DNA from: Ruminococcus sp. | Lineage (GTDB): Bacteria > Bacillota > Clostridia > Oscillospirales > Acutalibacteraceae | Direction of reading: 5' to 3' | Length of the DNA: 49,747 bases | Assembly (NCBI GenBank): GCA_017473775.1 | Contig: JAFUJH010000003.1 | Coordinates: 1 to 49,747 of the forward strand | Shown: positions 2,471 through 49,662 of the stretch, in pieces | Numbering within the stretch: the first letter of the stretch is position 1 | Layout of the letters: each line of letters begins with the position of its first letter | The notes under the pieces: model-generated | Database searches by the model: none | The model's input: the letters and a program-made list of their open reading frames with translations, nothing else | Told to the model about the DNA's origin: nothing | Program-made: the position numbers and the translations under genes

Positions 2471-2790
2471 ATGTAACACCTCCTGTATCTGAAAAGGTCC
2501 CTTCACCTTTATAAACGGAAAAATTATGAAGCAGGTCACATATATATTATAAATGTACAGAGATAAATTACAAGAAATGCACAGCAAAATATTACTGTAC
2601 TAAATTTGAAAACGGAGACTTTCGTTAGTTTGTACAATATTATAGAAAATCTTTATATATAATGATAAAATTTATTTATTATGGAGTGGTTTTCCTTGAT
2701 TTAAGGAAGAAAATGGTGTATATTTATCATGTATCAATGTATAATGCACACAGTGTGTCGTGTGCAAATCAAGTCATAAGGAGGATACTT
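2471..2790. promoter_or_regulatory. 320-base divergent intergenic region with candidate promoters
   Basis: AT-rich region between the sigma/serpin operon (leftward) and the first giant gene (rightward). Leftward candidates are a sigma-A-like TTGTAA-N16-TATAAT (2573-2546) and an ECF-like GTGACC-N15-CCGT (2539-2515). Rightward there is TTGATT-N17-TATATT starting near 2697, and a clear ribosome binding site AAGGAGG at 2778-2784, 6 bases before the ATG at 2791. An imperfect dyad GCACAC/GTGTGC lies near 2748-2766. The promoters are read by eye and not proven. Confidence 0.5.
2515..2539 (-). promoter_or_regulatory. Candidate sigma-autoregulated promoter of the sigma/serpin operon
   Basis: On the minus strand GTGACC is followed, after 15 bases, by CCGTTTATA, about 45 bases before the TTG start. 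The other sigma operon has GCAACC-N15-TGTCATTA at the same place relative to its gene. Both are followed by a GTGA-containing stretch before the ribosome binding site. ECF factors commonly control their own genes through an AAC-type -35 and a CGTC-type -10, so the match is suggestive. Confidence 0.4.
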
Positions 2791-5700
2791 ATGAAACACA
2801 AATTTCTAAGGCGTGTTCTGGTGTTGGTGCTTTGCCTGTGCATGACTCTGTCTATGCTTCCCATGGGGATTCATATGGCAGATGTTGAGGCGGTCAGCGG
2901 CGTCAATTCACTGACTTGTGCAGGGTTTATCTCAAACTCTACAGCCAGAGCCTACATCGATGCAATGATGAAGCATTACATCAATAACAGCTCAACATTG
3001 CAGTCTACCCTTAACAACGGCAACTCTGTTGTCTTTATGTTTGAGGGCGGTTCTGACAACTATTGGAGCGGTACTACCTACTACAACAGTTCATACAATA
3101 CCCGTACTCAGGCGGTTTGTATTGTTGTAAAGATGAACTCAAGCGGTAACGCATACATTGCATATTACACCGAAAACTGTTCATCCGTTCCCGATGAGCC
3201 TACATGGTGCACCAATGGTGTTGCCTATTCAGGTTCTACCACTCTGATGGACGGCACATATTCCTTCTTTACATGGAACCATACAGGTCCCTATGCGGCG
3301 TTCCAGATTAATCTGAACTCCACAAGCGGACTTTGTTACTATACACCTACTGCAAACCTTAACGGCTACAAGGCAGGTGCCAGCGGTATTAATATCCATA
3401 CCCGTTCCACCAAAACCACCGGCGGAAGCGCTGTTGGTTGGGTATGGTCTGCAGGCTGTCAGGTTATCGGCTACGGCAACGACTCCAGCAACGAGTTCAA
3501 CGGATTTGTGCAGGCTGTTACAGGTATCACATGGAATCCTTGGATTTCATGGACAAGTAAGATTCTGAACACATGGACCAGTGCTCAGCTTTATGCATAC
3601 AAGGGCTACTATGTTCTGGACAGACAGCTTGCACTGTCAAACCCCAGCGGCGTTAAGTACGGCACAGGCTCTCTGGGCTCACTGTACAACTCCACAGCTC
3701 TTACAAATATCACAGCTGCATCTACTGCAGCAAAGACTGCGGCAGGCGCAACTATAGTTGACTACCTTTCAAAGTGTACCACTTATCCTGCACACGGCAA
3801 ACTTAAGTGCACAGGTACAGATGTGTGGTCAAGAACACTGCCCTGTTACTCAGACACAGACTCAGGTACAGTTGGCATTGAATCGTATAACGAGGGTGAC
3901 ACATTGACCTGTACAGGACTTGTGAAGAATTCTGTGGATGAATACTGGTATCAGGTAACTACCTCGTCGGGAAGTTCCGGTTATGTTCGAGCGGCGTATA
4001 TGGAATACACACAAGAACTATTGACGGATATCAAGCTTACATCACACACACCGCCTAACGGACATGTTAAGGGAAGTGCCTATATTGTAAGCGGTACTAT
4101 AGCATCTCCTTACAATGGCCTTACAGCGGTATCAGCTTATGTACACAGCGGCTTCTCAACCACGAGTGATACTGTAACCGGACACAGGGTTACACTGTCA
4201 AACGGTCATTCCTACACACTTGACAACAGTGATGTTGATGCAAAGGTTCTTATGGGTGCTCTGGACACCGGAAACTATACCCTTGTTATCAAAGCGGAGT
4301 ACAAGAACTGCTATGTCGTGGATGATACTACACTGAAAACAAATACTGGAACTATGATTTTGGCAGATGACTACTTTATGGTTATTCCCTCGGCTGTAAC
4401 CCAGAGCTCCTGTAGCCATACAAACAAGACCTATCAGATTACAGCAAGCACCTGTACACAGGCAGGTAAGAGCATCACAGCCTGTACCACCTGCGGACTT
4501 ATCGGCAGTACCACAACCACAACAGGTGCACATAAATGGGGCGACTGGGTAACTGTTGAGGCTACCTGCACCACTGCAGGCTCAAAGACCCGTACCTGTT
4601 CTTTATGTAAAGAAACAGAAACAGAGATACTAACAAACGGCGGACACAGCTACACAAGCAAGCATGTGGATGCTACCTGTGTAGATTTTGACAAAACCTT
4701 ATATACCTGCTCTGAGTGTGGACACTCCTACTCTGTATACACAGACAGTCCCTCCGAGTGGCAGGAGACAAAGCCTCAGGGCTATGCTGATTCACTGATT
4801 GAAACAAAAACCCAGTACAGCTACTCTGAGTATCAGACAGTGCAGAATTACAACACTGCTATGGACGGCTACACACTTGTCAGCAGTGAATGGGAGAGTC
4901 AGGGTAAAAAGACCTATGACTATGTGTCTGACTGGGGAGCAGGCGGCTTTGATAAAACAAACAGCCTCTATACTCAGTATAATGTGGCTCCTCTGACAGC
5001 CTCCACTGCGGCAGAAACCAAGAGGGAGATAAACGCCTCCACTCAGTACGGATATCTGTATTATCACTGGTGCTATGAAGACTCAGGCTCCTGTTGGGAG
5101 TATAAGACAGACGAGTATACTACCTTCCACGCATATTACGATGTTGCAAGTCCTGATAATTACACTTGCGACACCTTCGATATGAGCTACAAGACATCTC
5201 ACAGCTGTTGCTCCAACTCCAACTGGTTCTGTGCAGTTCCTATTACACGACAGACTTACACAGACTATAAGATGCTGTATACTCATTCCATCTGGACAGA
5301 TTACTCTGACTGGAGCGATACCGAGGTAACAGCCGCTTGGAACAAGAAGGTTCAGACACGCACAGTTTACCGCGTGATAAGCTCAGGTCAGCTTGCAGAC
5401 CATATCTATGTAAACGGCATCTGCTCCGTTTGCGGTAAAGAGGAGCCTGCATATTATCTGTTTGGCTTTATAAATGGTGCAGATTATGCCTGCGAAGGCG
5501 ACAGAGATAACATCGGCATCTACAAGTTCACTGACGGTATCCTCACTGCAAAGTTCACACAGGACAGCTATGTGGGCGTCAAGACAAGTGATAACGAAAG
5601 CTGGTATATGACAGACGGCTATCAGGGTGAGGAGGCTACCTCTGTAACCCTCTATAACACAAACAAGGGCATTAATGCTGATAAGCTCTTTGTCCCCGGC

Positions 5701-8700
5701 GGCAGAGAGATAATATTCAGCCTTGTGAAGAACAGCGACGGGTCCCTGAAGCTCAGCTACAGTGCAGGTGCCTGTACACACGATAACCACGATACATCAG
5801 GAATCTGTACCAACTGCTCAGCTCAGGTACAGCATAACTATGTTGACGGCTACTGCACAATCTGCTCAAAGGAAATCCCCACATATTATCTTGTAGGCTT
5901 CCTGAACGGTGCTGACTACGGCATCGGTGCTGATTCTGAGAATATCGGCGAGTATAAATTTGTTGACGGTAAGCTGACAGCTACCTTCACCGAGGACAGC
6001 TATGTTGCCTTCAAGACAGGTGACAACACCGAGTGGTACAACACCGACGGCTATAAAGGTAAGGAGTACACCTCTGCTACCTTCTACAATGCACAGAAGC
6101 TGGGCGATAATGCCAACAAGCTCTTTATCCCCAAGGGCAGAGAGATTACCTTCACACTTACTGATAACGGCGACGGCAGTTTTACACTCAGCTATGTTGC
6201 CGCCCTGTGTGACCACGAGTCCCACGATACTTCGGGAATTTGTACTACCTGCGGTGACGAGGTAGGCCACGAAAACGAAAACGGCGTCTGCACCATCTGC
6301 GGATATAACTGTGACCATAGCTTTGTAGACGGAGTGTGCTCCATCTGCGGTAAGGAGAAGCCCTACTACTATTTGGTAGGATTCATCAACGGAGCAGACC
6401 ACTACTCTGATAACTTCAGATTTGAGGATAATCAGCTGGTTACAACCTTCACTGATTACAGCTACCTTGCTGTCAAAAGCTCTGACGGCACCACCTATAT
6501 GACAAACGGATATCTGGGCGAAAACTGCACTGTTGCTCCTATGTATGACGCGGTGGAGCTTGGCAAGAATGCAGATAAGCTTTATGTGCCCAAGGGCAGA
6601 GAGGTAACCGCTACACTGGCAGAGAACTCTGACGGCAGTGTTACACTCTACCTTGATATCAAGGTATGCGAGCATACAAACCATAACTTAGACGGAATCT
6701 GTACTGCCTGTGACGCACAGGTACAGCATACCAAGGTTGACGGTGTCTGCACAATCTGCGGACATATCTGTGACCATAACTTTGTAAACGGCTACTGTAC
6801 AGTCTGCGGAATGACTCAGCCTGTTTACTATCTCTATGGCTTCATCGACGGCGAAAAGTACGACGGCGAGGAGTACAAGTTCAAGAACGGCAAGCTGGTT
6901 GCAGAGTTCACCGATACCAGCTACATTGCTATCAGAACTGCTGACGGCAACCGCTTCCTGACAGAAAGCGATGCCGGCGGCACATCAGCACAATTCTATA
7001 ACATTAAGACAGGTAAGGGTACAGATATGATGTACATCCCCTCAGGCATTGAGCTTGTGTTCACACTTACCTGTGCTCAGGACGGCGTGCTGACACTTTC
7101 TTACGAGATAACAGCTTGTACACACGATAAGCACAGCACTGACGGTAAGTGTCTTGCTTGCGGTGAGGCTGTAACCCATACCTACAAGGACGGCTGTTGC
7201 ACAGTTTGCCAGCGTCCCGAGCCTGATTACTACCTGTTCGGTATTATCAACGGCGTTGACTATGCCTGCGGCGATGACTCTGAGAATATGGGTATCTACA
7301 AGTTTAGCGGCGGCAAGCTTGTGGCAGTGTTTACCCACGATAGCTACATTGCTGTCAAGACCGATGCCAACGAAGGCTGGTATATGACCGAGGGCTACAA
7401 GGCGGGTGCAACCGAAGCAACTCTCTATAATACAGCAAGCGGTATCGAGGATGCTCAGAGACTCTTTGTTCCCAAGGGCAGACTTATCACCTTTACTGTT
7501 GTGAACAATGGTGATGATACCCTGACCCTCACCTATGAGGCGGCACCTTGCAACCATGTAACACATAATATCTCCGCTGAATGTACAACCTGCGGGGAGA
7601 CAGTATTCCATACATATAAGAACGGCATCTGCACAGGCTGCTCACTTAAATGCCAGCACTATTGGTACAACGGTGTCTGCGTAGTTTGCCAGAGTACCTG
7701 CAATCATATCTGGATTGACGGCGGCTGCGTGCTCTGCGGTGCACAGTGCACACACAGCTTCACAGATGGAGTCTGCACACTTTGTGACACAGTTTGTGAG
7801 CACAGCTTTACAGATGGTGTATGCACCGGTTGCGGTACAGAATGTGACCACAGATTCAGAAACGGCATCTGCAAGGATTGCGGATTTGAATGTACACACA
7901 GCTTTGAAGAAGCTAAGTGCACTCAGTGTAATTTTGTTTGCGACCACAGCTACGAACAGGGTGTCTGCACAGTTTGCGCCCATGTTTGCCAGCATAAGTA
8001 TGAAGACGGCAAGTGCACAGTCTGCTCCTACACCTGTGTACATACCTTTGAGGATTCAGTATGTACAGAGTGCTCCTACATCTGTACACATAACTACAAA
8101 GATGGCGTATGCACAGTTTGTGCTGATGTATGTGAGCACAGCTACAATCTCGGCCAGTGTACTGACTGCGGTATAGTTTGTGAGCATACTTACGAGGATT
8201 CAGTATGTACAAACTGTAAGAATCAGTGTCAGCACAGCTTTACAGACGGTGTCTGCACGGTTTGCGGATATAGTGCACAGTTCTATCTGGTGGGCTACAT
8301 TAACGGCGAGAATGTTGGTTGTGACGAGAATTCAGCTCTGACAGGTCCCCACAAGTTCACCGACGGCACAGTTACTCTTGAGTTTACACAGGACAGTGCA
8401 GTTGCTGTCAAGACAGAGGATAACGCTGATTGGTATCTGCCTGACGGTACTACAGTAGGCACAACCGTTGAGCTTTGCAACACAAAGCTTCAGGGCAGTA
8501 CTGATATGCTGTACATACCCGGAGGTGTTAAGGTTACCTTTATACTGACTACAGGCGACAGCGGCAAGCTGATACTCTCCTACGAGTTCTCAAATTGTAA
8601 GCATTCAAGCCACAGAACCGACGGTTTGTGCTCTGTATGCTCTGCTGAGGTTAAGCACACCTACCATGACGGCAAGTGCACAGTATGTGCAAAGAAGGAA

Positions 8701-10005
8701 GCCGTTTACTACCTGTTCGGTAACATTAACGGCGAGGACTACGGATGTGAGGCTGATTCTGAGCGAATCGGAAGCTACAGATTTGTAGACGGTAAGCTGA
8801 CAGCTACCTTCACACAGGACAGCTACATTGCTGTCAAGACAGGCGACAATATGAGCTGGTTTATGACAGACGGCGACCAGGGAGATTCCAATGTAACTAT
8901 TCTGTATAACACTATGGTTTACGGCATTGATGCTGAGAAGCTCTTTGTTCCCGGTGGTGTAGAGGTTACCTTCACACTTAAAGCCAACAGCTTTGACACT
9001 GTGACTCTGAGCTATACTACCTCTGATGCTAAGCCTGAGCTTACACCTAAGTTTACACGGGTTGCTTATGAGGACGGCATCTCCTATGAGGTAAGATTTA
9101 GCCATAAGAATCTTCTGGGTGTATCATATGAGGATATGGGACTTGCACTGTTTGACTCCAAGGACGCAACTGCTCCTTCACAGTATGTGGCAGGAGTTTA
9201 TGAGGAAGGCAGATACTTAGTAGCAAGCACAGAGAAGATTAATCCCAAGAATATGGGTGACACTGTATACTTCAAGGTTTATGCCAAGCTCTCTGACGGA
9301 AGCTATGTATACAGTGATATGATGAGCGAAAACGCAGTGGAGCACGCAAGTTCTGTTATTAAGAATCCTGCATCCTCCAAGGAGCAGAAGGCACTGATGG
9401 TTGCACTTCTGAACTACGCAACAGAGGCTCAGATATACTTTAATTATAAGACCGACAGGCTTGCAAATGCAGGACTCACAGACAGCGAGAAGGCATTGGC
9501 ACGAGGCTACAGTGCAGATATGCTGTCAAAGACTGTAACCGCTGACAGCACAAAGACTGCTGACTTCAACAAGACAGCAGACAAGGCTCTGCTGTATCCC
9601 ACAGTATCCCTTGACAGTGCAATGCTTACAGTTAATTACAACTGCGTTGCAAAGGATGCTCAGGACGAGGTGACACTTTACTACTGGACCTCCGATGTAT
9701 ACAACAGTGTTGAGAAGCTTACTGCTGAGAATGCATCAGGCAAGCTTACAATGACAAAGAACGCATCAGGAACCTATACTGCAAGTATCGGTGACATTGC
9801 GGCAAAGGATATGGATAAGACCATATATACCGCTGTGGTATATAACAGTGCAAAGGGCGAGTCTCTATGCACAGGAGTTGTGTCCTACAGCGTTGCAGAT
9901 TACTGCAGGCTTTACGCAGAGAAGAACAACTCTGATATTCAGGATCTTGCACAGGCGGCGATAGTTTACGGCTATTATGCCAAGAGCTGTTTTGCTGAGG
10001 CTTAA
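2791..10005 (+). CDS. Giant exported Cys/His-repeat protein with L,D-transpeptidase-like N-terminal domain
   Basis: 2404 aa; ATG at 2791 preceded by AAGGAGG and opening with a signal peptide (residues 1 to about 33). Domains in order: a possible YkuD/L,D-transpeptidase-like domain (about 40-270, His203 in NIHTRS and Cys223 in SAGCQVIG); an SH3-like domain (about 340-405); a beta domain (410-535); a CxxC-rich segment (542-650); a Trp/Tyr-rich module (651-867) also present in the next gene; seven beta modules of about 105 residues starting with a YYLFGFINGADY-type motif, joined by Cys/His linkers; 13 tandem 16-residue C-x-H...C-x-x-C units; and a C-terminal domain (about 2081-2404). There is no LPXTG motif, dockerin or C-terminal membrane helix, so wall attachment probably uses the SH3-like parts. 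The gene after it is a paralog with a different N-terminal enzyme. Likely a cell-wall protein that may bind metal; the enzyme call is tentative. Confidence 0.85.
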   Translation: MKHKFLRRVLVLVLCLCMTLSMLPMGIHMADVEAVSGVNSLTCAGFISNSTARAYIDAMMKHYINNSSTLQSTLNNGNSVVFMFEGGSDNYWSGTTYYNSSYNTRTQAVCIVVKMNSSGNAYIAYYTENCSSVPDEPTWCTNGVAYSGSTTLMDGTYSFFTWNHTGPYAAFQINLNSTSGLCYYTPTANLNGYKAGASGINIHTRSTKTTGGSAVGWVWSAGCQVIGYGNDSSNEFNGFVQAVTGITWNPWISWTSKILNTWTSAQLYAYKGYYVLDRQLALSNPSGVKYGTGSLGSLYNSTALTNITAASTAAKTAAGATIVDYLSKCTTYPAHGKLKCTGTDVWSRTLPCYSDTDSGTVGIESYNEGDTLTCTGLVKNSVDEYWYQVTTSSGSSGYVRAAYMEYTQELLTDIKLTSHTPPNGHVKGSAYIVSGTIASPYNGLTAVSAYVHSGFSTTSDTVTGHRVTLSNGHSYTLDNSDVDAKVLMGALDTGNYTLVIKAEYKNCYVVDDTTLKTNTGTMILADDYFMVIPSAVTQSSCSHTNKTYQITASTCTQAGKSITACTTCGLIGSTTTTTGAHKWGDWVTVEATCTTAGSKTRTCSLCKETETEILTNGGHSYTSKHVDATCVDFDKTLYTCSECGHSYSVYTDSPSEWQETKPQGYADSLIETKTQYSYSEYQTVQNYNTAMDGYTLVSSEWESQGKKTYDYVSDWGAGGFDKTNSLYTQYNVAPLTASTAAETKREINASTQYGYLYYHWCYEDSGSCWEYKTDEYTTFHAYYDVASPDNYTCDTFDMSYKTSHSCCSNSNWFCAVPITRQTYTDYKMLYTHSIWTDYSDWSDTEVTAAWNKKVQTRTVYRVISSGQLADHIYVNGICSVCGKEEPAYYLFGFINGADYACEGDRDNIGIYKFTDGILTAKFTQDSYVGVKTSDNESWYMTDGYQGEEATSVTLYNTNKGINADKLFVPGGREIIFSLVKNSDGSLKLSYSAGACTHDNHDTSGICTNCSAQVQHNYVDGYCTICSKEIPTYYLVGFLNGADYGIGADSENIGEYKFVDGKLTATFTEDSYVAFKTGDNTEWYNTDGYKGKEYTSATFYNAQKLGDNANKLFIPKGREITFTLTDNGDGSFTLSYVAALCDHESHDTSGICTTCGDEVGHENENGVCTICGYNCDHSFVDGVCSICGKEKPYYYLVGFINGADHYSDNFRFEDNQLVTTFTDYSYLAVKSSDGTTYMTNGYLGENCTVAPMYDAVELGKNADKLYVPKGREVTATLAENSDGSVTLYLDIKVCEHTNHNLDGICTACDAQVQHTKVDGVCTICGHICDHNFVNGYCTVCGMTQPVYYLYGFIDGEKYDGEEYKFKNGKLVAEFTDTSYIAIRTADGNRFLTESDAGGTSAQFYNIKTGKGTDMMYIPSGIELVFTLTCAQDGVLTLSYEITACTHDKHSTDGKCLACGEAVTHTYKDGCCTVCQRPEPDYYLFGIINGVDYACGDDSENMGIYKFSGGKLVAVFTHDSYIAVKTDANEGWYMTEGYKAGATEATLYNTASGIEDAQRLFVPKGRLITFTVVNNGDDTLTLTYEAAPCNHVTHNISAECTTCGETVFHTYKNGICTGCSLKCQHYWYNGVCVVCQSTCNHIWIDGGCVLCGAQCTHSFTDGVCTLCDTVCEHSFTDGVCTGCGTECDHRFRNGICKDCGFECTHSFEEAKCTQCNFVCDHSYEQGVCTVCAHVCQHKYEDGKCTVCSYTCVHTFEDSVCTECSYICTHNYKDGVCTVCADVCEHSYNLGQCTDCGIVCEHTYEDSVCTNCKNQCQHSFTDGVCTVCGYSAQFYLVGYINGENVGCDENSALTGPHKFTDGTVTLEFTQDSAVAVKTEDNADWYLPDGTTVGTTVELCNTKLQGSTDMLYIPGGVKVTFILTTGDSGKLILSYEFSNCKHSSHRTDGLCSVCSAEVKHTYHDGKCTVCAKKEAVYYLFGNINGEDYGCEADSERIGSYRFVDGKLTATFTQDSYIAVKTGDNMSWFMTDGDQGDSNVTILYNTMVYGIDAEKLFVPGGVEVTFTLKANSFDTVTLSYTTSDAKPELTPKFTRVAYEDGISYEVRFSHKNLLGVSYEDMGLALFDSKDATAPSQYVAGVYEEGRYLVASTEKINPKNMGDTVYFKVYAKLSDGSYVYSDMMSENAVEHASSVIKNPASSKEQKALMVALLNYATEAQIYFNYKTDRLANAGLTDSEKALARGYSADMLSKTVTADSTKTADFNKTADKALLYPTVSLDSAMLTVNYNCVAKDAQDEVTLYYWTSDVYNSVEKLTAENASGKLTMTKNASGTYTASIGDIAAKDMDKTIYTAVVYNSAKGESLCTGVVSYSVADYCRLYAEKNNSDIQDLAQAAIVYGYYAKSCFAEA
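7651..8274 (+). repeat. Tandem array of 13 x 48-bp units coding C-x-H...C-x-x-C repeats
   Basis: Thirteen consecutive in-frame 48-base units with no length variation. The coded consensus is C-x-H-[S/N/T/K]-[F/Y]-x-[D/N]-G-x-C-x-x-C-x-x-x. Only the first two units have Trp at position 5; the rest have Phe or Tyr. The DNA units differ from each other, so the array is old or selected at the protein level. One further unit without the first Cys (FHTYKNGICTGC) precedes it. Three Cys and one His per unit would be one tetrahedral metal site each. Confidence 0.9.
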
Positions 10006-10111
10006 ATTGCAAAACCCTTATTAAATCAATTAATTAACTATGGATAACATCAAATTTTATAAAGAAGGGAGAGCTGAGTGTATTAAGCCAATACACAAGG
10101 CAAAAGGCAAT

Positions 10112-13100
10112 ATGAAGTTTATGAAGAAAAGCTTGTGTCTGATTCTTTCTGTGTTTATGATGCTGTCAGTACTGAGCATTGTGCCTGTGCAGGTGTTTGC
10201 CGCTTCGGCAAGCGACTACATCGCACAGACCTATGCGTCAAGCCTCAGCGTCAAGACTAATAAGATTACAAGTCTTATGAAATACCCCACAACCGATTCT
10301 GCCTATTCTGAGTATACAGTTCCCTCGGGCACTATGCTCACGGTTAAGGCGCTCCATAAGGATAACTCAGGAAAATACTGGTATCAGGTGCTTTATTACA
10401 ACCTGACTCTGTATGTGGATGCAACCGCCGCAACACTGGTTGACCACCTGACAGGTGATGTTACAGCAACAGGACTCCAGTCTCCTGCGTCCCTTACATA
10501 CGGAGGCTCGTTCCCCATTGGGGGTACAATCACATCAACCCTTAATGATATCGGAACTGTCACTGCCGCAATGTATAACGGCTCTAATCTGACCAAAGCA
10601 CCTGCTATTGAGTCAAGCGACACAGCAAACGGCAAGAAATATGTGCTGGATGACAGTACAGTGGACTATTATCTGTATTTCGGCAACCTTGCAACAGGTG
10701 TATATACATATATGCTTTCGGCAGAGGCTGTCAGCTACTACATTGACAGTTCAGGTGCACTTAAAACATCAACAACCGATGTTGTGCTCCAGACAAAGCT
10801 GTGCGTTGTTACAACCAGTGCAAGCCCCAACCCCGTTCTTCATAACGGTATCGATGTATCTGTATGGAACGGTACCATTGACTGGGCTACTGTAAAGACT
10901 CAGATTGACTTTGCAATCCTGCGTGCATCCTGGGAGGAAACAGCAGATACAAAGTTCTACACCAACGCTAACGGCTGTACTGAGAATGACATTCCCTTTG
11001 GTGTTTATGTTTATTCCTATGCAGAAAACGCCGCTGAAGCAAAGGGTGAGGCAGAGTATGTTCTTACTCTTTTAGATGGCTACGACCTTGACCTGCCCAT
11101 CTTCCTTGACTTTGAGGATGAGATTCAGATGAACCTGAGTTCATCCTTACAGCAGGAGGTTGTAAAGACTTTCTGTGATACTATCTATGCTGCAGGCTAT
11201 CAGCCCGGTATCTATACATACCAGTGGCTCCTCAGAAGCAGCACTTTCTCAGACCCATATTATAAGACAATCCCCACATGGGTTGCAGAGATTAAGAGCG
11301 GATACACAAACTATCCCGGCGGTCTGTGGATGTGGCAGTATTCATGGGTAGGACAGTTCAGCGGTATGTCTGGTGATGTTGACTGTAACAAGATGTATGT
11401 GGAGCTTCCCGGTACAAACAGCAGTGATACATCTTACCTTGCAAGCTGTACATACTATCCCTCTAACCTGATGGTTACTACAGATGTTGATACAAATGTA
11501 CGCCAGTACCCTGCATCTACATACACCCTGCTTGAGACTATAGATCCTGGCACAAGTCTCCATGTTACCGGATTATACAAGAATTCCTACGGCAACTACT
11601 GGTACGAGATTGAAAAAGACGGAGAAGCAGGTTATATTTACGCAGAAGATGTAACTGTTTCCGAATATCTGTATGATGACATTGCCATAAAGAATGTATC
11701 AATGGCTACAAATCTTGAGCTTGGTAAGGGCTACTACATTCAGGGCGACCTGACCTCTCAGTACAATAACCTTTCTACTGTTTATGCAAAGGTTTATTCG
11801 GGTGAGAATACTCAGGAAACTCCTACCCTTACAAGCAGTTACAGCCCCAATGCAAAAGAGTACTCTCTCTATAAAAGCGAGGTTGACTACGGACTTCTTT
11901 TCGGTTCTCAGCCCAAGGGCTACTACACCTATGAGGTGTCAGTAGATGCAAAGAACTACTATGCAACAAATGCCACAACCCTTGCAAGCAAGACAGAGAA
12001 TGTGGTAGTCTGGACTGCACCCTACACAGTAGATAACGGATCTATCGAGCCTCCCAACGAGACTGTATGTAACCATGTTATTGTGGTACAGCCTGCCAAG
12101 GAAGCAACCTGCACAGAAGCAGGTATCACTGCGGGCTCCTATTGTTCCGAGTGTGGCGAGGTGTTTGCTACACAGGAGACAGTCCCTGCAACAGGTCATA
12201 ACTACACTGTTGTGACAGTACCCTCCAACTGTCTGGATTATGAGCACGCATATTATTCCTGCTCACACTGCGGTGATAACTACAAAACCTACCTGACAGA
12301 GGAAAATACCACGGATTGGGTAGAAACCCTGCCCGAGGGAACCCCCGAGAAGCTCTACGAGTCAAAGACGGAGTATCGCTATTCTGATTATGAGGAAATT
12401 CAGAATAACACTCCCTCAATGGCGGGTTATTCTCTCCTGAATTCAAAATGGCAGAGTCAGGGACAGAAAACACAGGAATGTGTCCTGTCTTGGCCCGAAG
12501 GATTCGATACCGGCAATTCCTTGTATACAAAATACAATATAACACCAAAAACAAACACTACAAGCACATCTGCAAAAACAGAGGTTAACTCGGAGCAGAT
12601 TGTGGGATATCTTTATTATCACTGGTGCTCTGACAATCAGATAGCAGGTGGTCCATGGAACCGCACAACCAGTAAGGTTAAGACCGATTATTATGTAGGT
12701 TTCCATGCTTTCTACAGCACCTCAGACCCCTCTACTATGACAACAGCCAGTGACAGCAGCGTTACTTATCCTAATGCAGACTGCTGTATTGACTCTCACT
12801 GGTACTACAATGTTCCTGTTTACAAGCAGACTTATACCGAGTATAAGATGCTTTACACTCACTACAGATGGACTGATTGGAGTGAGTGGAGTGAAACTCC
12901 TGTTACTGCGTCCGATACAAGACAGGTTGAGACACGGACTCTTTACCGCTACAGCACAGCAACTCTGGGCGACCATATATTTGCAGACGGTGCCTGCACA
13001 CAGTGCGGTAAGCCCTGCGACCACAACTGGGTTGACAGCGTATGTACTATCTGTAACCTGCGTTGTGAGCATAACTGGCAGGACGGCGGATGCTCAATCT

Positions 13101-16100
13101 GCGGTAAGGTATGTAATCATCATTGGGCAGAGGGAAGCTGCTTCCTGTGCGGTGTCCGGTGTGAGCATACATGGACAGACGGCGTCTGTGATACCTGTAA
13201 GCTCGTTTGCTCTCATGATTATAAGAACGGCAGCTGTACAATATGTTCTAAGCCCTGTTCACCTCATAACTTTGTAAACGGCATCTGTCAGGTTTGCGGT
13301 ATCGTCTGCCAGCACGAAAACTGGTACGAGGGCAGATGTGCGACCTGCGGAACAGGCTGTAACCACACCTTCTCTCAGGGTAGCTGTACCAACTGTGGTG
13401 CGGAATGCACACATAGCTGGGACGGCGGCGTATGTACTATCTGTCAGTTAGTATGTGAGCATTCCTGGTCAAACGGAGAATGTACAATCTGTGATGTTAT
13501 ATGTGAGCATACATGGGTTGACGGCAAATGCTCTGTCTGCTCCAAGATTTGCCACCATGACTTTATAGACGGCAGCTGTACAGTCTGCCACAAGCCCTGC
13601 GTCCATAAGTGGAGCAACGGCCACTGTACTGTCTGCGGATATGTATGCGTTCATACATGGGAGGACGGCAAGTGTACCTCCTGCTCACTGGTATGTAACC
13701 ATACCTATGAGGACGGCGTATGTACTGTCTGCGGATATACCTGTAAGCACAGCTGGCTTGCAGGTAAGTGTACAATCTGCTCCTATCATTGCGAGCATAA
13801 CTGGGTTGACGGCGTGTGTACCGTCTGTGCTATGATTTGCGGACACAGCTATGAGGACGGCGTCTGCACCAACTGTGGATATGCCTGCGAGCATAACTGG
13901 CGTGACGGAGTCTGCAGAGAATGCGGCATTAATTGTGAGCACAGCTTCTCTCAGGGCAGTTGTACTGCCTGCGGAACAACCTGCGACCATAAGTGGGAGA
14001 ACAGCATCTGTACCATTTGCTCCAAGGAGTGTACAGACCACAGCTACATCGACGGCTTCTGTGCAATCTGCTCCAAGGAGAAGCCTCCCTTCTATCTGTA
14101 CGGCTATATTAACGGACAGGACTACGGCTGTGGCGAGGATGCAGACAACATCGGCATCTACGAGTTCAAGGACGGAAAGCTTGTCGTGACTTTCACCGAG
14201 AACAGCTATGTTGCAGTTAAGGACGGAGAAAACAAGAATTTCTATGTGACAAACGGCTATCAGGGCGACAATGTTACTCTGGCTGTTCTTTATAACGAAA
14301 ATCTCATCGGCGAAAACGGCGACAGACTCTATGTGCCCAAGGGCAGAGAGATTACCTTTACCCTTATCGATAACGAAAACGATACTCTGACTCTCTATTA
14401 TGTTGCTGCTGCGTGCAAGCACACAGAACACAGCGAGCAAGGAGTCTGCACTGCCTGCGATGCTCAGGTTGACCATACCTACCGTGAGGGCAAGTGCTCT
14501 GTATGCTCCCTTGAATGTGAGCATACCTTTGTAAGCGGCAGATGTACTATCTGCGGTATGGATTGTAACCACAACTGGGTAGACAGCCAGTGCACAGAGT
14601 GCTCAAAGGTCTGCACACACCACTTCACTGACGGAGTCTGCACAGTTTGCTCCTTTACCTGTGAGCACAACTTTGTTGACGAGAAGTGCACAGTGTGCGA
14701 AATGGCTTGCGCTCATCAGTTTGTTGACGGAGTCTGCATAGTCTGCAGATATGTATGCCAGCATAATTACTCCGATGGCGTATGCTCTGATTGTCAGACC
14801 GTATGCGAGCATACCTTCAAGGATGGCATCTGTACCAACTGCAGATATGTATGTGCACACAACTTTGAGCAGGGCGTATGTACAATCTGCTCCTACACCT
14901 GCGAGCACAGCTTCTCTGACGGAGAGTGTACCTCTTGTGATGTGGGCCAGTTCTATCTGAGCGGCTACATCAACGGCGAGGCTGTAGGCTGTGATGATAA
15001 TTACCTTGAGACAGGCAGCTATAACTTTGTAGGCGGTGAGCTGACTATCACCCTGACACAGGATAGCTACATATTTATCAAGACCTTTGGAAACGGTAAG
15101 CTGTATATGACTCAGGGCGACACAAGCGGTACATCTGCAACACTTTATAACCTTACAAGCGGTAAGGTTGCAGGTCTGCATTGCCTGCCCGGCGGTACAA
15201 CATTGAAGCTTACACTGTTCTCAGGTAAGAACGATACTCTGGCATTGCTTGCGGATGTAGTATCCTGTGAGCATCACAAGCACGACACAGCAGGTAACTG
15301 TACAGTCTGCGGCGAAGCTACAGACCACATCTACGAAGCAGGCAAGTGTGCAGTCTGCGGTATAGATAAGCCCCTCAAGGATATGTACCTGTTCGGCTTT
15401 ATCAATGGTGCGAACTACGGTTGCGAGGAGGATGCCCAGACTATCGGTGAATATAAGTTCATCGACGGAAAGCTGACAGCCACCTTTACTGAGGATAGCT
15501 ATGTTGCAGTTAAAACTGCAGATAACTCCGACTGGTATATGACCAACGGTTGGGTCGGCTACGATACAGAGTTTGCTATTCTGTACAGCACAGCCACAGG
15601 CATTATTGCAGATAAGCTCTTTGTCCCCGGTAACACTCAGGTTACTTTCACACTTAACTACAACGGCAACGATACCTTCACTCTCAGCTATGTAGCCGAG
15701 GAGTTGCAGATTCCTGAGATTCTGCCCAAGTTTGCCCGTCTTTCCTACGAGGATGGACTCTGCTACGAGGCAGGATTCAGAGTAAGCAATATGGATGTTG
15801 CCTATGAGAATATGGGAATCGAGATTTTCGGCGATGATATGTCCGACGCTCCCACTCAGGTTATCAAGGGTGCAACAGCCGACGGCAGATATCTTGTTGT
15901 AAGAACAAATAACATTCATCCTATGGAGTTGGGTGACACAGTATACTTCAGGATTTACGCAATCCTCGATGACGGTACATATGTATACAGTGATATGCTC
16001 AGTGTCAACGGCGTGGATTACGCTAACAAGATTCTCAGAACCCCTGCATCCTCCAAGGAGCAGAAGGCATATATGGTAGCCCTTCTCAACTTCAGTACAC

Positions 16101-16669
16101 AGGCACAGCTCTACTTCGGCTATAACACCGAGAAGCTTGCAAACGCAGGTCTTGATGCTGAGCACAGAGCACTTGTGAAGAAGTACAGTGCCTCAATGGT
16201 GCAGGATTCATCAGTAGCAGACAGCACAAAGGCATCCGCCTTTGCAAAGACTGCTGTTGGTGCCCTGATTTATCCCACTATGTCATTTGCGGATGATACC
16301 TTTACAGTTAACTATAACTTCATTGCAAGCGGTGCACAGGGCGATGTGCTTCTCTACTACTGGAGCAGCGATGGTTACAATAATGCATCTGCCCTTACTG
16401 CAAGCAATGCTACAGGCATCATCACAATGACTAAGGATGCAAGCGGAGCATACACAGCAAGCATCAGCGGCATATCGGCACAGGATATGGACGAGACAAT
16501 CTATGTGTCTGTTGTATACACTGCATCAGGCGAGAGCCTGTGCACAGGGGTTATCTCCTACAGCTTTGCAGACTACTGCAAGGCAACAGCAGAGAAATCC
16601 TCCGATGCTCAGGAGCTTGCTCAGTCAGCGATAGTTTACAGCTACTACGCAAAGAAACTCTTTGGCTGA
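10112..16669 (+). CDS. Giant exported GH25 muramidase with SH3-like domains and Cys/His repeat arrays
   Basis: About 2185 aa. I chose the ATG at 10112 because it begins a signal peptide (MKFMKKSLCLILSVFMM... cleaved near Ala30); the ribosome binding site is weak (AAAAGG, 4 bases away), and ATG 10121 is an alternative. Domains: SH3-like (47-110); beta domain (113-235); GH25 lysozyme (244-432) with HNGIDVSVWNG (Asp248), PIFLDFED (Asp333, Glu335) and GDVDCNKMY; second SH3-like (443-518); beta domain (520-637); CxxC-rich segment (653-730); Trp/Tyr-rich module shared with the previous gene (733-951); 22 Cys/His units (969-1323); one beta module; nine more Cys/His units (1469-1612); two beta modules; C-terminal domain (about 1867-2185) shared with the previous gene. 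Expected role: cleavage of the N-acetylmuramyl bond of peptidoglycan at the cell surface. It lies 106 bases after the first giant gene with no clear terminator between, so co-transcription is possible. Confidence 0.88.
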   Translation: MKFMKKSLCLILSVFMMLSVLSIVPVQVFAASASDYIAQTYASSLSVKTNKITSLMKYPTTDSAYSEYTVPSGTMLTVKALHKDNSGKYWYQVLYYNLTLYVDATAATLVDHLTGDVTATGLQSPASLTYGGSFPIGGTITSTLNDIGTVTAAMYNGSNLTKAPAIESSDTANGKKYVLDDSTVDYYLYFGNLATGVYTYMLSAEAVSYYIDSSGALKTSTTDVVLQTKLCVVTTSASPNPVLHNGIDVSVWNGTIDWATVKTQIDFAILRASWEETADTKFYTNANGCTENDIPFGVYVYSYAENAAEAKGEAEYVLTLLDGYDLDLPIFLDFEDEIQMNLSSSLQQEVVKTFCDTIYAAGYQPGIYTYQWLLRSSTFSDPYYKTIPTWVAEIKSGYTNYPGGLWMWQYSWVGQFSGMSGDVDCNKMYVELPGTNSSDTSYLASCTYYPSNLMVTTDVDTNVRQYPASTYTLLETIDPGTSLHVTGLYKNSYGNYWYEIEKDGEAGYIYAEDVTVSEYLYDDIAIKNVSMATNLELGKGYYIQGDLTSQYNNLSTVYAKVYSGENTQETPTLTSSYSPNAKEYSLYKSEVDYGLLFGSQPKGYYTYEVSVDAKNYYATNATTLASKTENVVVWTAPYTVDNGSIEPPNETVCNHVIVVQPAKEATCTEAGITAGSYCSECGEVFATQETVPATGHNYTVVTVPSNCLDYEHAYYSCSHCGDNYKTYLTEENTTDWVETLPEGTPEKLYESKTEYRYSDYEEIQNNTPSMAGYSLLNSKWQSQGQKTQECVLSWPEGFDTGNSLYTKYNITPKTNTTSTSAKTEVNSEQIVGYLYYHWCSDNQIAGGPWNRTTSKVKTDYYVGFHAFYSTSDPSTMTTASDSSVTYPNADCCIDSHWYYNVPVYKQTYTEYKMLYTHYRWTDWSEWSETPVTASDTRQVETRTLYRYSTATLGDHIFADGACTQCGKPCDHNWVDSVCTICNLRCEHNWQDGGCSICGKVCNHHWAEGSCFLCGVRCEHTWTDGVCDTCKLVCSHDYKNGSCTICSKPCSPHNFVNGICQVCGIVCQHENWYEGRCATCGTGCNHTFSQGSCTNCGAECTHSWDGGVCTICQLVCEHSWSNGECTICDVICEHTWVDGKCSVCSKICHHDFIDGSCTVCHKPCVHKWSNGHCTVCGYVCVHTWEDGKCTSCSLVCNHTYEDGVCTVCGYTCKHSWLAGKCTICSYHCEHNWVDGVCTVCAMICGHSYEDGVCTNCGYACEHNWRDGVCRECGINCEHSFSQGSCTACGTTCDHKWENSICTICSKECTDHSYIDGFCAICSKEKPPFYLYGYINGQDYGCGEDADNIGIYEFKDGKLVVTFTENSYVAVKDGENKNFYVTNGYQGDNVTLAVLYNENLIGENGDRLYVPKGREITFTLIDNENDTLTLYYVAAACKHTEHSEQGVCTACDAQVDHTYREGKCSVCSLECEHTFVSGRCTICGMDCNHNWVDSQCTECSKVCTHHFTDGVCTVCSFTCEHNFVDEKCTVCEMACAHQFVDGVCIVCRYVCQHNYSDGVCSDCQTVCEHTFKDGICTNCRYVCAHNFEQGVCTICSYTCEHSFSDGECTSCDVGQFYLSGYINGEAVGCDDNYLETGSYNFVGGELTITLTQDSYIFIKTFGNGKLYMTQGDTSGTSATLYNLTSGKVAGLHCLPGGTTLKLTLFSGKNDTLALLADVVSCEHHKHDTAGNCTVCGEATDHIYEAGKCAVCGIDKPLKDMYLFGFINGANYGCEEDAQTIGEYKFIDGKLTATFTEDSYVAVKTADNSDWYMTNGWVGYDTEFAILYSTATGIIADKLFVPGNTQVTFTLNYNGNDTFTLSYVAEELQIPEILPKFARLSYEDGLCYEAGFRVSNMDVAYENMGIEIFGDDMSDAPTQVIKGATADGRYLVVRTNNIHPMELGDTVYFRIYAILDDGTYVYSDMLSVNGVDYANKILRTPASSKEQKAYMVALLNFSTQAQLYFGYNTEKLANAGLDAEHRALVKKYSASMVQDSSVADSTKASAFAKTAVGALIYPTMSFADDTFTVNYNFIASGAQGDVLLYYWSSDGYNNASALTASNATGIITMTKDASGAYTASISGISAQDMDETIYVSVVYTASGESLCTGVISYSFADYCKATAEKSSDAQELAQSAIVYSYYAKKLFG
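13016..14080 (+). repeat. Tandem array of 22 Cys/His units (48 bp, three of 51 bp)
   Basis: Twenty-two consecutive in-frame units of the C-x-H-x-[W/F/Y]-x-[D/N]-G-x-C-x-x-C pattern. Nineteen are 48 bases. Units 6, 7 and 22 carry one extra codon near the His (CSPHNF, CQHENW, CTDHSY). Trp at position 5 dominates here, unlike the array in the preceding gene, which points to homogenisation within each array. Confidence 0.9.
14516..14947 (+). repeat. Tandem array of nine 48-bp Cys/His units
   Basis: Nine exact-length units, again C-x-H...C-x-x-C, placed between the first and second beta modules of the GH25 giant protein. Position 5 is mostly Phe (Trp only in unit 2), which resembles the array in the upstream gene more than the 22-unit array in the same gene. 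Confidence 0.9.
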
Positions 16670-16830: not shown

Positions 16831-19095
16831 ATGAGTAAGGATGTATTTGTAAGCTATGCTCATTCGGATATTGAGCAGGTTAAGAAAATTATAACAGCAC
16901 TGAAGGCAGTGCCCGAGGTGCAGGTCTGGTACGACAGCAATCTGCGTGGCGGAGAGCATTACTTCAGTGTTATTGCAGAGAGTATTCTCAAGAACGATTA
17001 CTTTGTCTTTGTGGTGTCACAGGCATCTGTCCATAGTGACTGGTGTCTCCACGAGCTGGAGTTTGCTATGTCAGAGAAGCGGAAGATTATCGCAATCTGG
17101 CTGGAGAATACAGATATTCCTGCAGGCGTCAAGCTTGTAATCCAGAACACCCACTACATAATGTGGACAGATGATGACGAGGAGGAGCTGGCTGAGGATA
17201 TAAAGAGAACCTTTGCAGAGGGCTACGCAGAGGTCCCCAGAGCCAAGCAATCAGCTCAGGATGATTCTCCCTTCCATGCAGAGAGGTACTTTATCCCTGC
17301 AACCAAGACCAAGCTCATCAAGGAGCTTTTAGCTTGTGAGAAGAAAAGTCAGTATTCAAAGTGCTTTGTGGCAGAGAACGCAGTGCTTCTAGGTATGGCG
17401 TATGAGCTTGGCATAGAGACAGAAAAAGACCTGAAAAAAGCGGAGTTCTACTATACAGTAGGCAAGCATAAGGGCAGTGTTGACGCAAAGTACCTGTATG
17501 CGGCACTGATGATAGAATCAGACAAAAACGGCAGAAAGCGGTATCTGCAGGAAATGGAGGAAGCCGCTGACGAAGGCAGTGTGCTGGCTATGACCTATCT
17601 GGGCGACAGCATCTACGACGGCAAGTGGGGGCTCCCTGCCAATAAGGAGAAGGCGTATCAGTGGTGGCGTAAAGCCGCCGATAACGGCGACCCTGCGGCT
17701 ATGTACTTTATGTCCTACGGATATCAGTACGGCGAATGCTTTGAGAAGGATTACGGACTTTCTCTTATGTATGCACTGAGCTCATCAGAATACCTGTTCC
17801 CCAGAGCATTCCGTACCTTGGGCAGAGCCTATGAAAACGGCAGGTTTGTGGATAAGGATTTGGAGCAAGCTCTCAAATATTTTGAGAAAGCCGCCAATCT
17901 GGGAGATTACCTGTCCCTTTGTTATATTGGCGGAATCTACTACTGGGACATGGAGGACTACCCCAAGGCGTGGGACTACTATTGTCAGGCAGAGAAGGCT
18001 GCCGACGAGGGTAAGACCAAGTCCGGACTTCCCTACAGGCGTGTGGGACTTTGCTACTACTATGGCAAGGGTGTAGAGATGGACGAGCACAAGGCGATTG
18101 AATATATGTTCAAGGCCGTCAAACGAAACCACCCCTATACAATGAAGCATATCGCAAAGGATATCGCTGTGTCAGAGACTATTACTCTTTACGATAAAAT
18201 CAAGTATCTTCGCGAGGCGTGCTTCTATCAGTGCAACGAGGCAGAACTGAGGATAATTTACTGCTTGCGGGGAGAGAAAGAGCCCGACCTTGAAAAGATA
18301 AACGATGCTCTGGATATGTTCGATATGAACCTTGAGGGCAGAAAGGCTTTGGTTACAGCCAATTCAAAAGCAGGCAGAAAACCTAACCACAGAGAGCTGG
18401 ACGAGATTGTCTACAGCCTTGCACACAAAGGTGCAGAGCATGGCGATATTGATTGCATCAAGGAGCTGTGCAGTGCAGAGTCATGGGTGCTGGGCGGCGA
18501 GAAGTTTGCCAACCGCGACAAGGCTCTCAAGAGCTTCCAGCTGTTGTTTTCTCTTGCAGGTGAGGATGAAATCGATGCTGTTTATTACTATTCTTACGCG
18601 GTTGAACTTGCAATTGACAGAGTAAATAAGAACCCAGACAAAGACCATGTTTTCTACTATTTTGAGAAAACACTCAAGTCTGATATGACCCTGTGGAATT
18701 CGGTTGTTTCCATCGGTCGTGAGTATCTTGTGGAAGAAAGCAAGGGCGCTTTGTATCTTGATGTAGAATTCGGTGAGGAGTTCCTGATGTTTGCGAAGCG
18801 TTACCTTGATGAACAGTCCCGTGAGCTTATGAGTGCTTACCTTGACAAAAAGAACGAGGGATTCACTGAGGGATGCGATTTGCTTATTAATGGACTGCGT
18901 CTGCTCAGCGACCACTACAACAGAGGTAAACATGTGAAAAAGGATAAGGACAAGGCACGAAGCCTCGAGCTTATGATAAAGAGCGTGGAGCAGAAGAAAG
19001 CAGAATTTTCTCAGAAGTTCCAGAACAAAAAGGAAAAAGGCGGCCTTGAGGCAATGGTTGCCGAACAGCTCAAAAAAAGAAATCAGAACACATAA
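16831..19095 (+). CDS. TIR domain protein with Sel1-like (TPR-type) repeats
   Basis: 754 aa from ATG 16831, with GAGGAG 7 bases upstream. Residues 1 to about 133 form a TIR domain: KDVFVSYAHSD at the start, VWYDSNLRGG, and SQASVHSDWCLHELEFA, where Glu75 sits at the position of the catalytic Glu of TIR NADases. From about 178 on there are Sel1-like repeats such as NKEKAYQWWRKAADNGDPAA and DLEQALKYFEKAANLGDY, each about 36 residues, then a helical C-terminus rich in Lys/Glu. No signal peptide or membrane helix, so it is cytosolic. TIR domains in bacteria often cleave NAD+ in antiphage defence or act as scaffolds; Sel1 repeats bind partners. It stands alone with its own promoter and terminator, so no Thoeris-like partner is visible. 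Function is inferred from domains only. Confidence 0.88.
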   Translation: MSKDVFVSYAHSDIEQVKKIITALKAVPEVQVWYDSNLRGGEHYFSVIAESILKNDYFVFVVSQASVHSDWCLHELEFAMSEKRKIIAIWLENTDIPAGVKLVIQNTHYIMWTDDDEEELAEDIKRTFAEGYAEVPRAKQSAQDDSPFHAERYFIPATKTKLIKELLACEKKSQYSKCFVAENAVLLGMAYELGIETEKDLKKAEFYYTVGKHKGSVDAKYLYAALMIESDKNGRKRYLQEMEEAADEGSVLAMTYLGDSIYDGKWGLPANKEKAYQWWRKAADNGDPAAMYFMSYGYQYGECFEKDYGLSLMYALSSSEYLFPRAFRTLGRAYENGRFVDKDLEQALKYFEKAANLGDYLSLCYIGGIYYWDMEDYPKAWDYYCQAEKAADEGKTKSGLPYRRVGLCYYYGKGVEMDEHKAIEYMFKAVKRNHPYTMKHIAKDIAVSETITLYDKIKYLREACFYQCNEAELRIIYCLRGEKEPDLEKINDALDMFDMNLEGRKALVTANSKAGRKPNHRELDEIVYSLAHKGAEHGDIDCIKELCSAESWVLGGEKFANRDKALKSFQLLFSLAGEDEIDAVYYYSYAVELAIDRVNKNPDKDHVFYYFEKTLKSDMTLWNSVVSIGREYLVEESKGALYLDVEFGEEFLMFAKRYLDEQSRELMSAYLDKKNEGFTEGCDLLINGLRLLSDHYNRGKHVKKDKDKARSLELMIKSVEQKKAEFSQKFQNKKEKGGLEAMVAEQLKKRNQNT

Positions 19096-19133: not shown

Positions 19134-19199
19134 TAGGGGATAAAAAGTTTGTAACGAATTTTCTCTTTTGTAATCTTATATATGAAGGGCGGTGAGAGT

Positions 19200-19682
19200 G
19201 TGGCTGATATAGAGGGGCTTTATAAAGAATACTACAGCTTAATTTTCAAGTATCTGTTTAGTCTCAGCAAGGATTCTTCTCTATCTGAGGAGCTTACGCA
19301 GGAGACCTTCTATCGTGCTTTTGTGAATATCGCAAAGCTTCGGGATGATGCAAAGGCAGTAGCGTGGCTGTGCAGTATTGCAAAGAATCTGTACTTTGCG
19401 TGGTATAAAAATCACAAAAGATTTGAAACCTCTTTGGAACAGGATACCTTGTCAGCTGAGGATACAGCGGATAAGGTGGAGACAAAGTTTCTGACTCAGG
19501 AATGTATGTACTGTGTTAACAGATTACAGACTCCTTACAAAGAAGTTTTCCTGCTGTCAGTATTCGGCGGCTTATCGTTTAAAGAAATAAGCCTTGCTTT
19601 TCATAAAAGCGAAAGCTGGGCAAGGGTCACATTCTACCGTGCAAAGCAAAAGATAATGGAAAGATTGGAGGAGAAAATATGA
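19200..19682 (+). CDS. ECF RNA polymerase sigma factor
   Basis: 160 aa from a GTG at 19200; an ATG at 19182 in the same frame would add six residues (MKGGES) but has no ribosome binding site, whereas AAGGGCGGTGAG precedes the GTG and the product then starts VADIEGLYKEYYSLIFKY, as family members do. Region 2: ELTQETFYRAFVNIAKL; region 4: FKEISLAFHKSESWARVTFY, the promoter -35 recognition helices. Its stop overlaps the ATG of the anti-sigma gene by 4 bases (ATGA). A GTAACG motif near 19151 could be an ECF-type -35 for autoregulation. It belongs to a different ECF type from the two other sigma factors in the window, which have a YWQR start and partners without a zinc finger. Confidence 0.85.
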   Translation: MADIEGLYKEYYSLIFKYLFSLSKDSSLSEELTQETFYRAFVNIAKLRDDAKAVAWLCSIAKNLYFAWYKNHKRFETSLEQDTLSAEDTADKVETKFLTQECMYCVNRLQTPYKEVFLLSVFGGLSFKEISLAFHKSESWARVTFYRAKQKIMERLEEKI

Positions 19683-49525: not shown

Positions 49526-49570
49526 AAAGGCAGTGAGTTTTCGCTTGAACTCACTGCCTTTAGAGTTTTT
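49526..49570 (+). terminator. Intrinsic terminator after the DegV-family gene
   Basis: A perfect 14-bp stem (49526-49539 with 49548-49561), 8-base loop, then AGAGTTTTT. Confidence 0.85.
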
Positions 49571-49646
49571 GGTTCTTTGTCAATAGTTGGGGTAAAATCC
49601 GAAAAAATGGTTCTTTGTCAATAGTTGGGGTAAAATCCGAAAAAAT
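49571..49646 (+). repeat. Exact tandem duplication of a 38-base sequence
   Basis: Two identical copies, 49571-49608 and 49609-49646, each starting GGTTCTTTGTCAATAGTTGG and ending CCGAAAAAAT. No gene. The unit may be the left edge of a mobile or repeated element that continues beyond the window; this cannot be tested here. Confidence 0.85.
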
Positions 49647-49662
49647 GAATTAAATTGATAAA

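Follow-up and report, generated by a model that had tools for sequence, protein, structure and literature searches.

Small structural zinc sites with a CxxC knuckle are found in zinc ribbons, zinc knuckles and rubredoxin-like folds, and the repeats of Gram-positive surface stalks (Ig-like, B-type) are roughly 70–110 residues long, without metal-ligand cores. Metallothioneins have no fixed fold per repeat. The heavy metal binding domain HMBD (Pfam PF19335) places a Cys/His ahead of G-x-C-x-x-C, and we know of no tandem array of it. Among surface proteins of gut organisms, the VSPs of Giardia hold many CxxC motifs and have a protease resistance that is reported to be lost with chelators and regained with metal (PMC6341118). 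We analysed a window of 49,747 nucleotides from Ruminococcus sp. (the whole stretch of contig JAFUJH010000003.1 presented here), in which two adjoining genes on the forward strand, A and B, carry long arrays of a 16-residue unit, C-x-H-x6-C-x2-C-x3, with three Cys and one His. We consider it likely that these arrays are metal-pinned, probably zinc-pinned, extracellular spacer stalks of fixed length.

The unit resembles small zinc sites in its CxxC knuckle on a short, here predicted, hairpin and in its four Cys/His ligands within 13 residues. It differs in its putatively extracellular setting, its dozens of tandem copies, its ligand order C,H,C,C, and the lack of a useful PDB match alongside weak Pfam matches. 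Gram-positive stalks offer a likeness in that their tandem domains hold a functional head off the anchor; the unit here is 16 residues long and would be pinned by ligands. Giardia VSPs are, by comparison, eukaryotic, and reducing agents also abolish their resistance, so disulfides take part; the portion of that source available describes no strict 16-residue C,H,C,C unit (PMC6341118).

The genes and arrays lie as follows.
2791..10005, + strand: gene A, a 2404-aa protein, putatively exported from the look of its N-terminus; a conserved N-terminal domain (INIHT and SAGCQ motifs), a weak SH3 match, seven beta modules, a 13-unit array and a C-terminal part shared with B
7651..8274 (ORF aa 1664-1871), + strand: array A, 13 units C-x-H-x6-C-x2-C-x3
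10112..16669 (start 10112 or 10121), + strand: gene B, putatively exported on the same basis; in order a GH25 lysozyme domain, an SH3_3 domain, a 22-unit array, a beta module, a 9-unit array, two beta modules and a C-terminal part shared with A
10850..11365 (ORF aa 271-442), + strand: GH25 lysozyme domain of B (Pfam PF01183, E 3.8e-22)
13016..14071 (ORF aa 993-1344), + strand: array B1, 22 units, 19 exact and three with one inserted residue
14516..14947, + strand: array B2, 9 units

The first-pass annotation had described arrays of 13, 22 and 9 units with spacing kept to the residue. The 44 units were all recovered in our count, and residue shuffling (2000 per protein) produced no run of at least two exact units; the spacing is exact in 41 units and one residue longer in the other three. 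An additional three-ligand unit, H-x6-C-x2-C, stands before B1. Within 276 exact units, an aromatic residue fills position 5 in 98.9% and Gly fills position 8 in 82%. At the DNA level, the sole report of Tandem Repeats Finder inside the arrays was a stretch of 2.2 copies with 75% matches, and this near loss of a DNA-level repeat signal indicates that the units are old. Because array lengths differ by three in one relative described below, we also looked for a super-repeat of three units; unit identity was 3.16 of 12 at lag 3 and 3.00 at lag 1, and the idea was dropped as unconvincing.

Across homologues, the ligands are strongly constrained. Anchoring on CxxC knuckles 16 residues apart, with neither H3 nor C1 required, we found H3 in all 484 distinct units and C1 in 424 of them, with H3 retained in all 60 exceptions; the proteins in this count had been gathered with the whole motif. 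In a second count over eight gene pairs (16 proteins, knuckles from aa 880 on), with homologues gathered by similarity to the arrays, a set that would miss arrays wholly without the motif, 439 of 454 knuckles fit the C,H,C,C scheme or a compensated variant of it: 324 are C,H,C,C units, 58 long units and 57 compensated units, and the 15 others comprise 12 H,C,C units and three incidental CxxC. The four ligands are thus not freely replaced. Ligand codons in array A of the window differ synonymously at 24, 25 and 26 of 52 positions from relatives L049, L055 and L029, and at 16 of 52 from L090; such frequent synonymous change between diverged arrays points to selection on the residues themselves.

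The linkers show what happens when a ligand is lost. There are eight in the two proteins, each with a long first unit that carries an extra His (C-x-H-x2-H-x5-C-x2-C) and a second unit, Hx6CxxC, that lacks the first Cys; two continue with one full unit and two lead into arrays.
5773..5865, + strand: two-unit linker of A between beta modules
6208..6348, + strand: three-unit linker of A (a long unit, one that lacks the first Cys, and a full unit at aa 1217)
6667..6807, + strand: three-unit linker of A (full unit at aa 1370)
7117..7209, + strand: two-unit linker of A
7549..7641, + strand: two-unit linker into array A (CxHxxHx5CxxC, then Hx6CxxC)
8596..8688, + strand: two-unit linker of A, after the array and one beta module
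14414..14506, + strand: two-unit linker into array B2
15266..15358, + strand: two-unit linker of B between the last two beta modules

Single units had been thought to join the beta modules; units do join them, in twos and threes. To quantify the trade, 599 contexts of H-x6-C-x2-C were sorted by the element that precedes them. Of the 59 cases behind a long unit that has the extra His, 57 lack C1, and all 353 behind a normal unit possess it. C1 is again present in 57 of 61 units that follow a unit itself without C1, the remaining four being lipoprotein-like relatives in which, from the contexts printed, the unit stands behind an even longer one with an extra His. All four contexts behind long units that lack the extra His (two are near copies) also have C1, as do all 18 behind other knuckles. 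A Fisher value of 4e-68 for this compensation is no true probability, as the sequences are related. With one Cys traded for one His, the ligand total stays at eight per two units, an exchange that would be natural for a metal site and would be meaningless for a disulfide. Replacement of a lost ligand by another (Cys to His) holds except in the first unit of 12 of the 16 proteins.

Where within the array a site would form is suggested by units that stand alone. L043 and L072 contain an isolated complete unit, and where a unit is the last one before a beta module, no C-x-H follows from which it could take a ligand. Each of these observations favours a site within single units over one that neighbours share. 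With the site inside the unit, the extra His of the long unit must reach into the site of the next.

We then considered the predicted structure. Given six units and an alignment of 67 rows, AlphaFold2 (mean pLDDT 92.3) placed an identical pair of two-residue strands (5-6 and 9-10) with a turn at residues 7-8 in all six, so that each unit is predicted to be a small regular hairpin. This sets it apart from metallothioneins, as the units keep an aromatic residue and a hairpin turn and are predicted to be folded. No Pfam or NCBIfam model covers the unit convincingly. Matches to the Notch LNR repeat (PF00066), at E values no higher than 1 and 2.3e-5 at best, came from 26 of the 67 array members; array B2 scored 10.5 bits for a curated cut-off of 21.2, and the family was set aside as a weak match. 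HMBD gave no match in A, B or their pieces and matched one of 67 array members (E 0.0013), and the Giardia VSP family (PF03302) was absent from the Pfam matches of A and B and from the 25 families listed, in a capped list, for the array alignment. We discarded DUF1281_C, which a piece of B1 matched below the family cut-off (E 2.9e-4), other Pfam families with weak matches to single array members, an NCBIfam serine-rich model with a weak match to one of 67 members, and PDB matches to L37, filamin and staphostatin, which were weak and put down to chance.

In the mechanism that we propose, each unit would run as a hairpin from C1-x-H3-x-[F/W/Y]5, through a turn at D/N7-G8, into C10-T-x-C13, and the side chains of C1, H3, C10 and C13 would bind one metal ion, most likely Zn2+. 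Dozens of units in tandem could then form a compact rod of fixed length that would space functional domains (the GH25 lysozyme domain, the beta modules) outside the cell. The thiols could escape oxidation in the anaerobic gut, and a stalk pinned by metal would be stable and would resist cleavage by proteases. The idea of one metal ion per unit, put forward in the first-pass annotation, is well supported, as a reading of sequence patterns, by the ligand constraint, the Cys/His trade, the isolated units and the lack of VKOR, DsbA and DsbB matches in the organism's own genome (see below), and it has the best support of the readings considered.

Placement was surveyed in 38 array loci besides the A–B pairs; contig or locus ends truncate 20 of these loci. 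A lipobox (simple pattern) is present in 12 of the 38, with the array beginning right at the lipobox in six; in four others of the 38 loci the array lies ~80 residues before a C-terminal hydrophobic, lysine-ended stretch. A Pfam scan of 17 of the 38 loci gave a match in seven, namely metallophosphoesterase in three of the four C-terminal-anchor loci (the fourth, L089, lay outside the scan) and, elsewhere, CotH, an esterase, GH20 and an endonuclease I with CBM26. Arrays next to an anchor could behave as spacer stalks, though in most loci an anchor was not seen.

Several observations weigh against a metal-pinned stalk. Neither anchor arrangement is present in 28 of the 38 other array loci, and in L047 the lipobox Cys is also the first Cys of the first unit, so that this unit could lack a ligand. 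In 12 of 16 proteins the first unit past the N-terminal region shows H,C,C only, and a fourth ligand is not visible; in the remaining four this unit precedes the aa 880 cut and is hence uncounted. Where no knuckle stands just before, C1 is present in 26 and absent in 78 of 104 contexts, the ten of these 78 that were inspected being array starts and C-x-x-H variants. The 57 compensated linkers are related sequences and not independent events. As for the structure, the rows of the AlphaFold2 alignment had been picked with the motif, so that the ligands are invariant by construction, and a pTM of just 0.63 gives little guide to the stiffness and shape of the rod. PDB searches with an array and with a two-unit stretch returned no solved structure at a useful E-value.

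The same Cys could instead make a disulfide-linked rod, with Cys paired within or between units and the His in another role. CXXC-rich surface proteins can form disulfides: Giardia VSPs are reported to become protease-sensitive after reducing agents or chelators (PMC6341118). Some Clostridia are also said to possess DsbA or VKOR together with disulfide-bonded exported proteins, and some organisms to use DsbA-like proteins without a partner, although obligate anaerobes tend to exclude Cys from exported proteins (PMC12453122). The unit itself fits such pairing poorly: its Cys number three, an odd count, H3 varies no more than the Cys do, and C1 is lost alone with gain of a His and not with loss of a partner Cys, nor are Cys lost or gained in pairs. 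VKOR and DsbA gave no match in any of 59 genomes, the organism's own included, and DsbB none in its own genome and a partial match in one of the 59 (G010), in searches that were positive for VKOR, DsbA and DsbB in 3, 8 and 6 of 14 control genomes. With the own genome at 94% completeness, the absence of these three families there is likely and not certain; SdbA-type and other thiol oxidases were not searched. On balance we find a disulfide rod improbable. Cys makes up 4.9% of A and 5.9% of B, and 0.4-3.5% of other ORFs near the gene pairs that have a signal-like start by a simple pattern, the export of A and B being judged from the look of their N-termini.

Two further readings keep the metal and change its purpose. 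An extracellular, metallothionein-like reservoir or scavenger of many weakly held ions would be in line with 44 sites in one gene pair and with a ligand set suited to Zn2+, Cd2+ or Cu+. A store would, however, need neither the hairpin turn nor the aromatic residue that each unit keeps, array lengths are fixed among the nearest pairs, and some relatives have short arrays at membrane anchors. No metal transporter family appeared among the ten window neighbours scanned with Pfam, no wider search having been made. Offered the choice between stiff rod and metal store that the first-pass annotation had left, we favour a rod or spacer, which fits the placement in some relatives better, and regard a store as quite unlikely. 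Even further from our expectation, and deserving very little weight, is a row of rubredoxin-like Fe(Cys3His) sites passing electrons through the wall. A CxxC knuckle with three Cys and one His could hold iron, and the centres would be regularly spaced; yet nothing in the sequence favours iron, the ten scanned neighbours (a subset of the window ORFs) include no redox partner family, and the other array proteins with a Pfam domain (7 of 17 scanned) carry hydrolase, nuclease or CotH domains and not redox ones.

We compared array lengths across the family. The five nearest pairs agree in their CxxC runs, with 15 in A and 23 in B1. For B2 the number is 11 in three pairs and 12 in two, where the twelfth is an incidental CxxC without the unit ligands, so that with this discounted the B2 length would be 11 in all five. 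Array lengths are conserved though most unit sequences have drifted, and between distant pairs most cognate units hardly exceed non-cognate ones in identity. For array A, cognate units are identical at 2.77 of 12 positions between window and L055 (non-cognate 2.52) and at 3.77 between window and L090 (3.26). Against L078, cognate and non-cognate identities are 2.86 and 2.93 for B1, and 3.89 and 2.90 for B2, which has kept more memory. In G369 the lengths are 12, 20 and 8, all three arrays being shorter by exactly three. The arrays of G357 and G020 are shorter too and differ in arrangement, with 11 and 9 or 6 in A and with 8 and 7 in B. Most B1 units of G369 (L119, L120) are 17 residues long.

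The conserved lengths may reflect a length rule, or just diverged repeats that no longer recombine. The latter, conservation without function, has a chance that we would put close to even, leaning slightly against it. Units this old and diverged should rarely undergo unequal crossing-over, and the five equal-length pairs make up a single clade on the B tree (support 87/92), which their lengths need not predate. On the A tree the same five pairs lie on both sides of the midpoint split, which would make the lengths ancestral. Other members of the family did undergo length changes, and in G369 the three arrays changed by the same number. A more speculative idea, which we hold to be unlikely, is that A and B form a matched pair of metal-pinned rulers in which exactly 13, 22 and 9 sites would set a fixed distance across the envelope and the arrays of A and B would keep step, as in G369.

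The array-module stretch finds a match in 19 of 59 genomes (the own one counted), in most of them via the beta module alone. With an array profile (E 1e-8), matches were found in 10 of 161 genomes of the genus and in 2 of 291 genomes drawn from the class, one of these being the own genome; A and B are both present in eight of these genomes, own included. In G369, A and B are on separate contigs, each gene cut off by a contig end, and may or may not be neighbours. A protein search of genome contigs with array B1 alone gave no match. Scanning a three-unit residue pattern against GTDB species genomes returned 56 stretches, of which 51 are open-frame arrays in bacterial metagenome-assembled genomes, 50 labelled as Clostridia or a group within and one as 'uncultured bacterium', many from ruminant guts. 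The unit therefore does recur in other genomes. The other five (L050, L051, L068, L086 and L088) were dropped as low-complexity or stop-containing DNA, and both viral hits (L094 and L095) were left out as well. From the listings of literature searches, no described array of this kind was found, and with no convincing family model the unit looks like a repeat family of gut Clostridia that has yet to be described.

Related patterns were seen in other settings. An Oscillospirales phage (PV036458.1; L122 5119-11592) encodes a 2157-aa protein with six tandem 17-residue units of like kind and scattered others. A Lachnospira eligens plasmid protein annotated MucBP (L121 3181-7353) has a related yet different Cys/His knuckle pattern at 27% identity. 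A clostridial lipoprotein-like ORF (L073 1585-2640) ends in identical tandem copies of another C-x-H-x6-C-x2-C unit, CQHGNNPDTCPTCHPK.

Turning to the remainder of the gene pair, the gene A ORF spans 2662-10005, and we place the start at 2791 because a ribosome-binding site, AAGGAGG, precedes it; the gene B ORF spans 10040-16669, with its likely start at 10112 or 10121. The N-terminus of A is conserved across eight genomes, with GINIHTRS and W-S-x-G-C-Q invariant. Pfam gives no family for it, and its one other match, to an unnamed phage family, is weak (E 0.0011); it may perhaps be an L,D-transpeptidase-like domain. The C-terminal part common to A and B is 52% alike over query 1483-2208. Beta modules, seven in A and three in B with short unit-built linkers between them, received no identification from Pfam or PDB searches; PDB searches with the linker-module alignment and with the A N-terminus likewise gave nothing usable, and arrays and modules together gave weak matches only in Pfam and NCBIfam. 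The proteins had been called wall proteins, and the GH25 lysozyme and SH3_3 domains that Pfam identifies in B agree with this in part; no anchor was identified in A or B.

A serpin gene and a sigma-70-family factor (474-2587, - strand) are divergent from A. Serpin-like and sigma-like ORFs upstream of A occur in the three nearest genomes only: ORFs with like starts hold this place in G363 and G028 and not in the more distant pairs fetched, so that the A–B pair stands alone in those. These upstream genes were considered as partners of A and B and set aside. Directly downstream of B lies a TIR domain fused to Sel1 repeats (16831-19095), and G028 has an ORF of near-equal length and like start downstream of its pair. 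A sigma-70-family factor followed by a zf-HC2-domain protein (19182-21031) is likely a sigma/anti-sigma pair. Farther on, an exported-looking protein with 0.6% Cys (39304-42636) contains a metallophosphoesterase, two starch-binding stretches of the CBM26 family and, below cut-off, one that is dockerin-like. The ORF at 42786-43697 (- strand) has a start that we take to resemble thioredoxin reductase. Close to the window end is a perfect 38-base tandem duplication (49570-49647, 2.1 copies).

How surface proteins that are both long and stable can be built without disulfides in anaerobic gut bacteria is still a puzzle. If the arrays are metal-pinned stalks, one metal ion per 16-residue step would be a simple answer, achieved with a very small folded repeat, and the surface architecture of these bacteria would depend on zinc supply.

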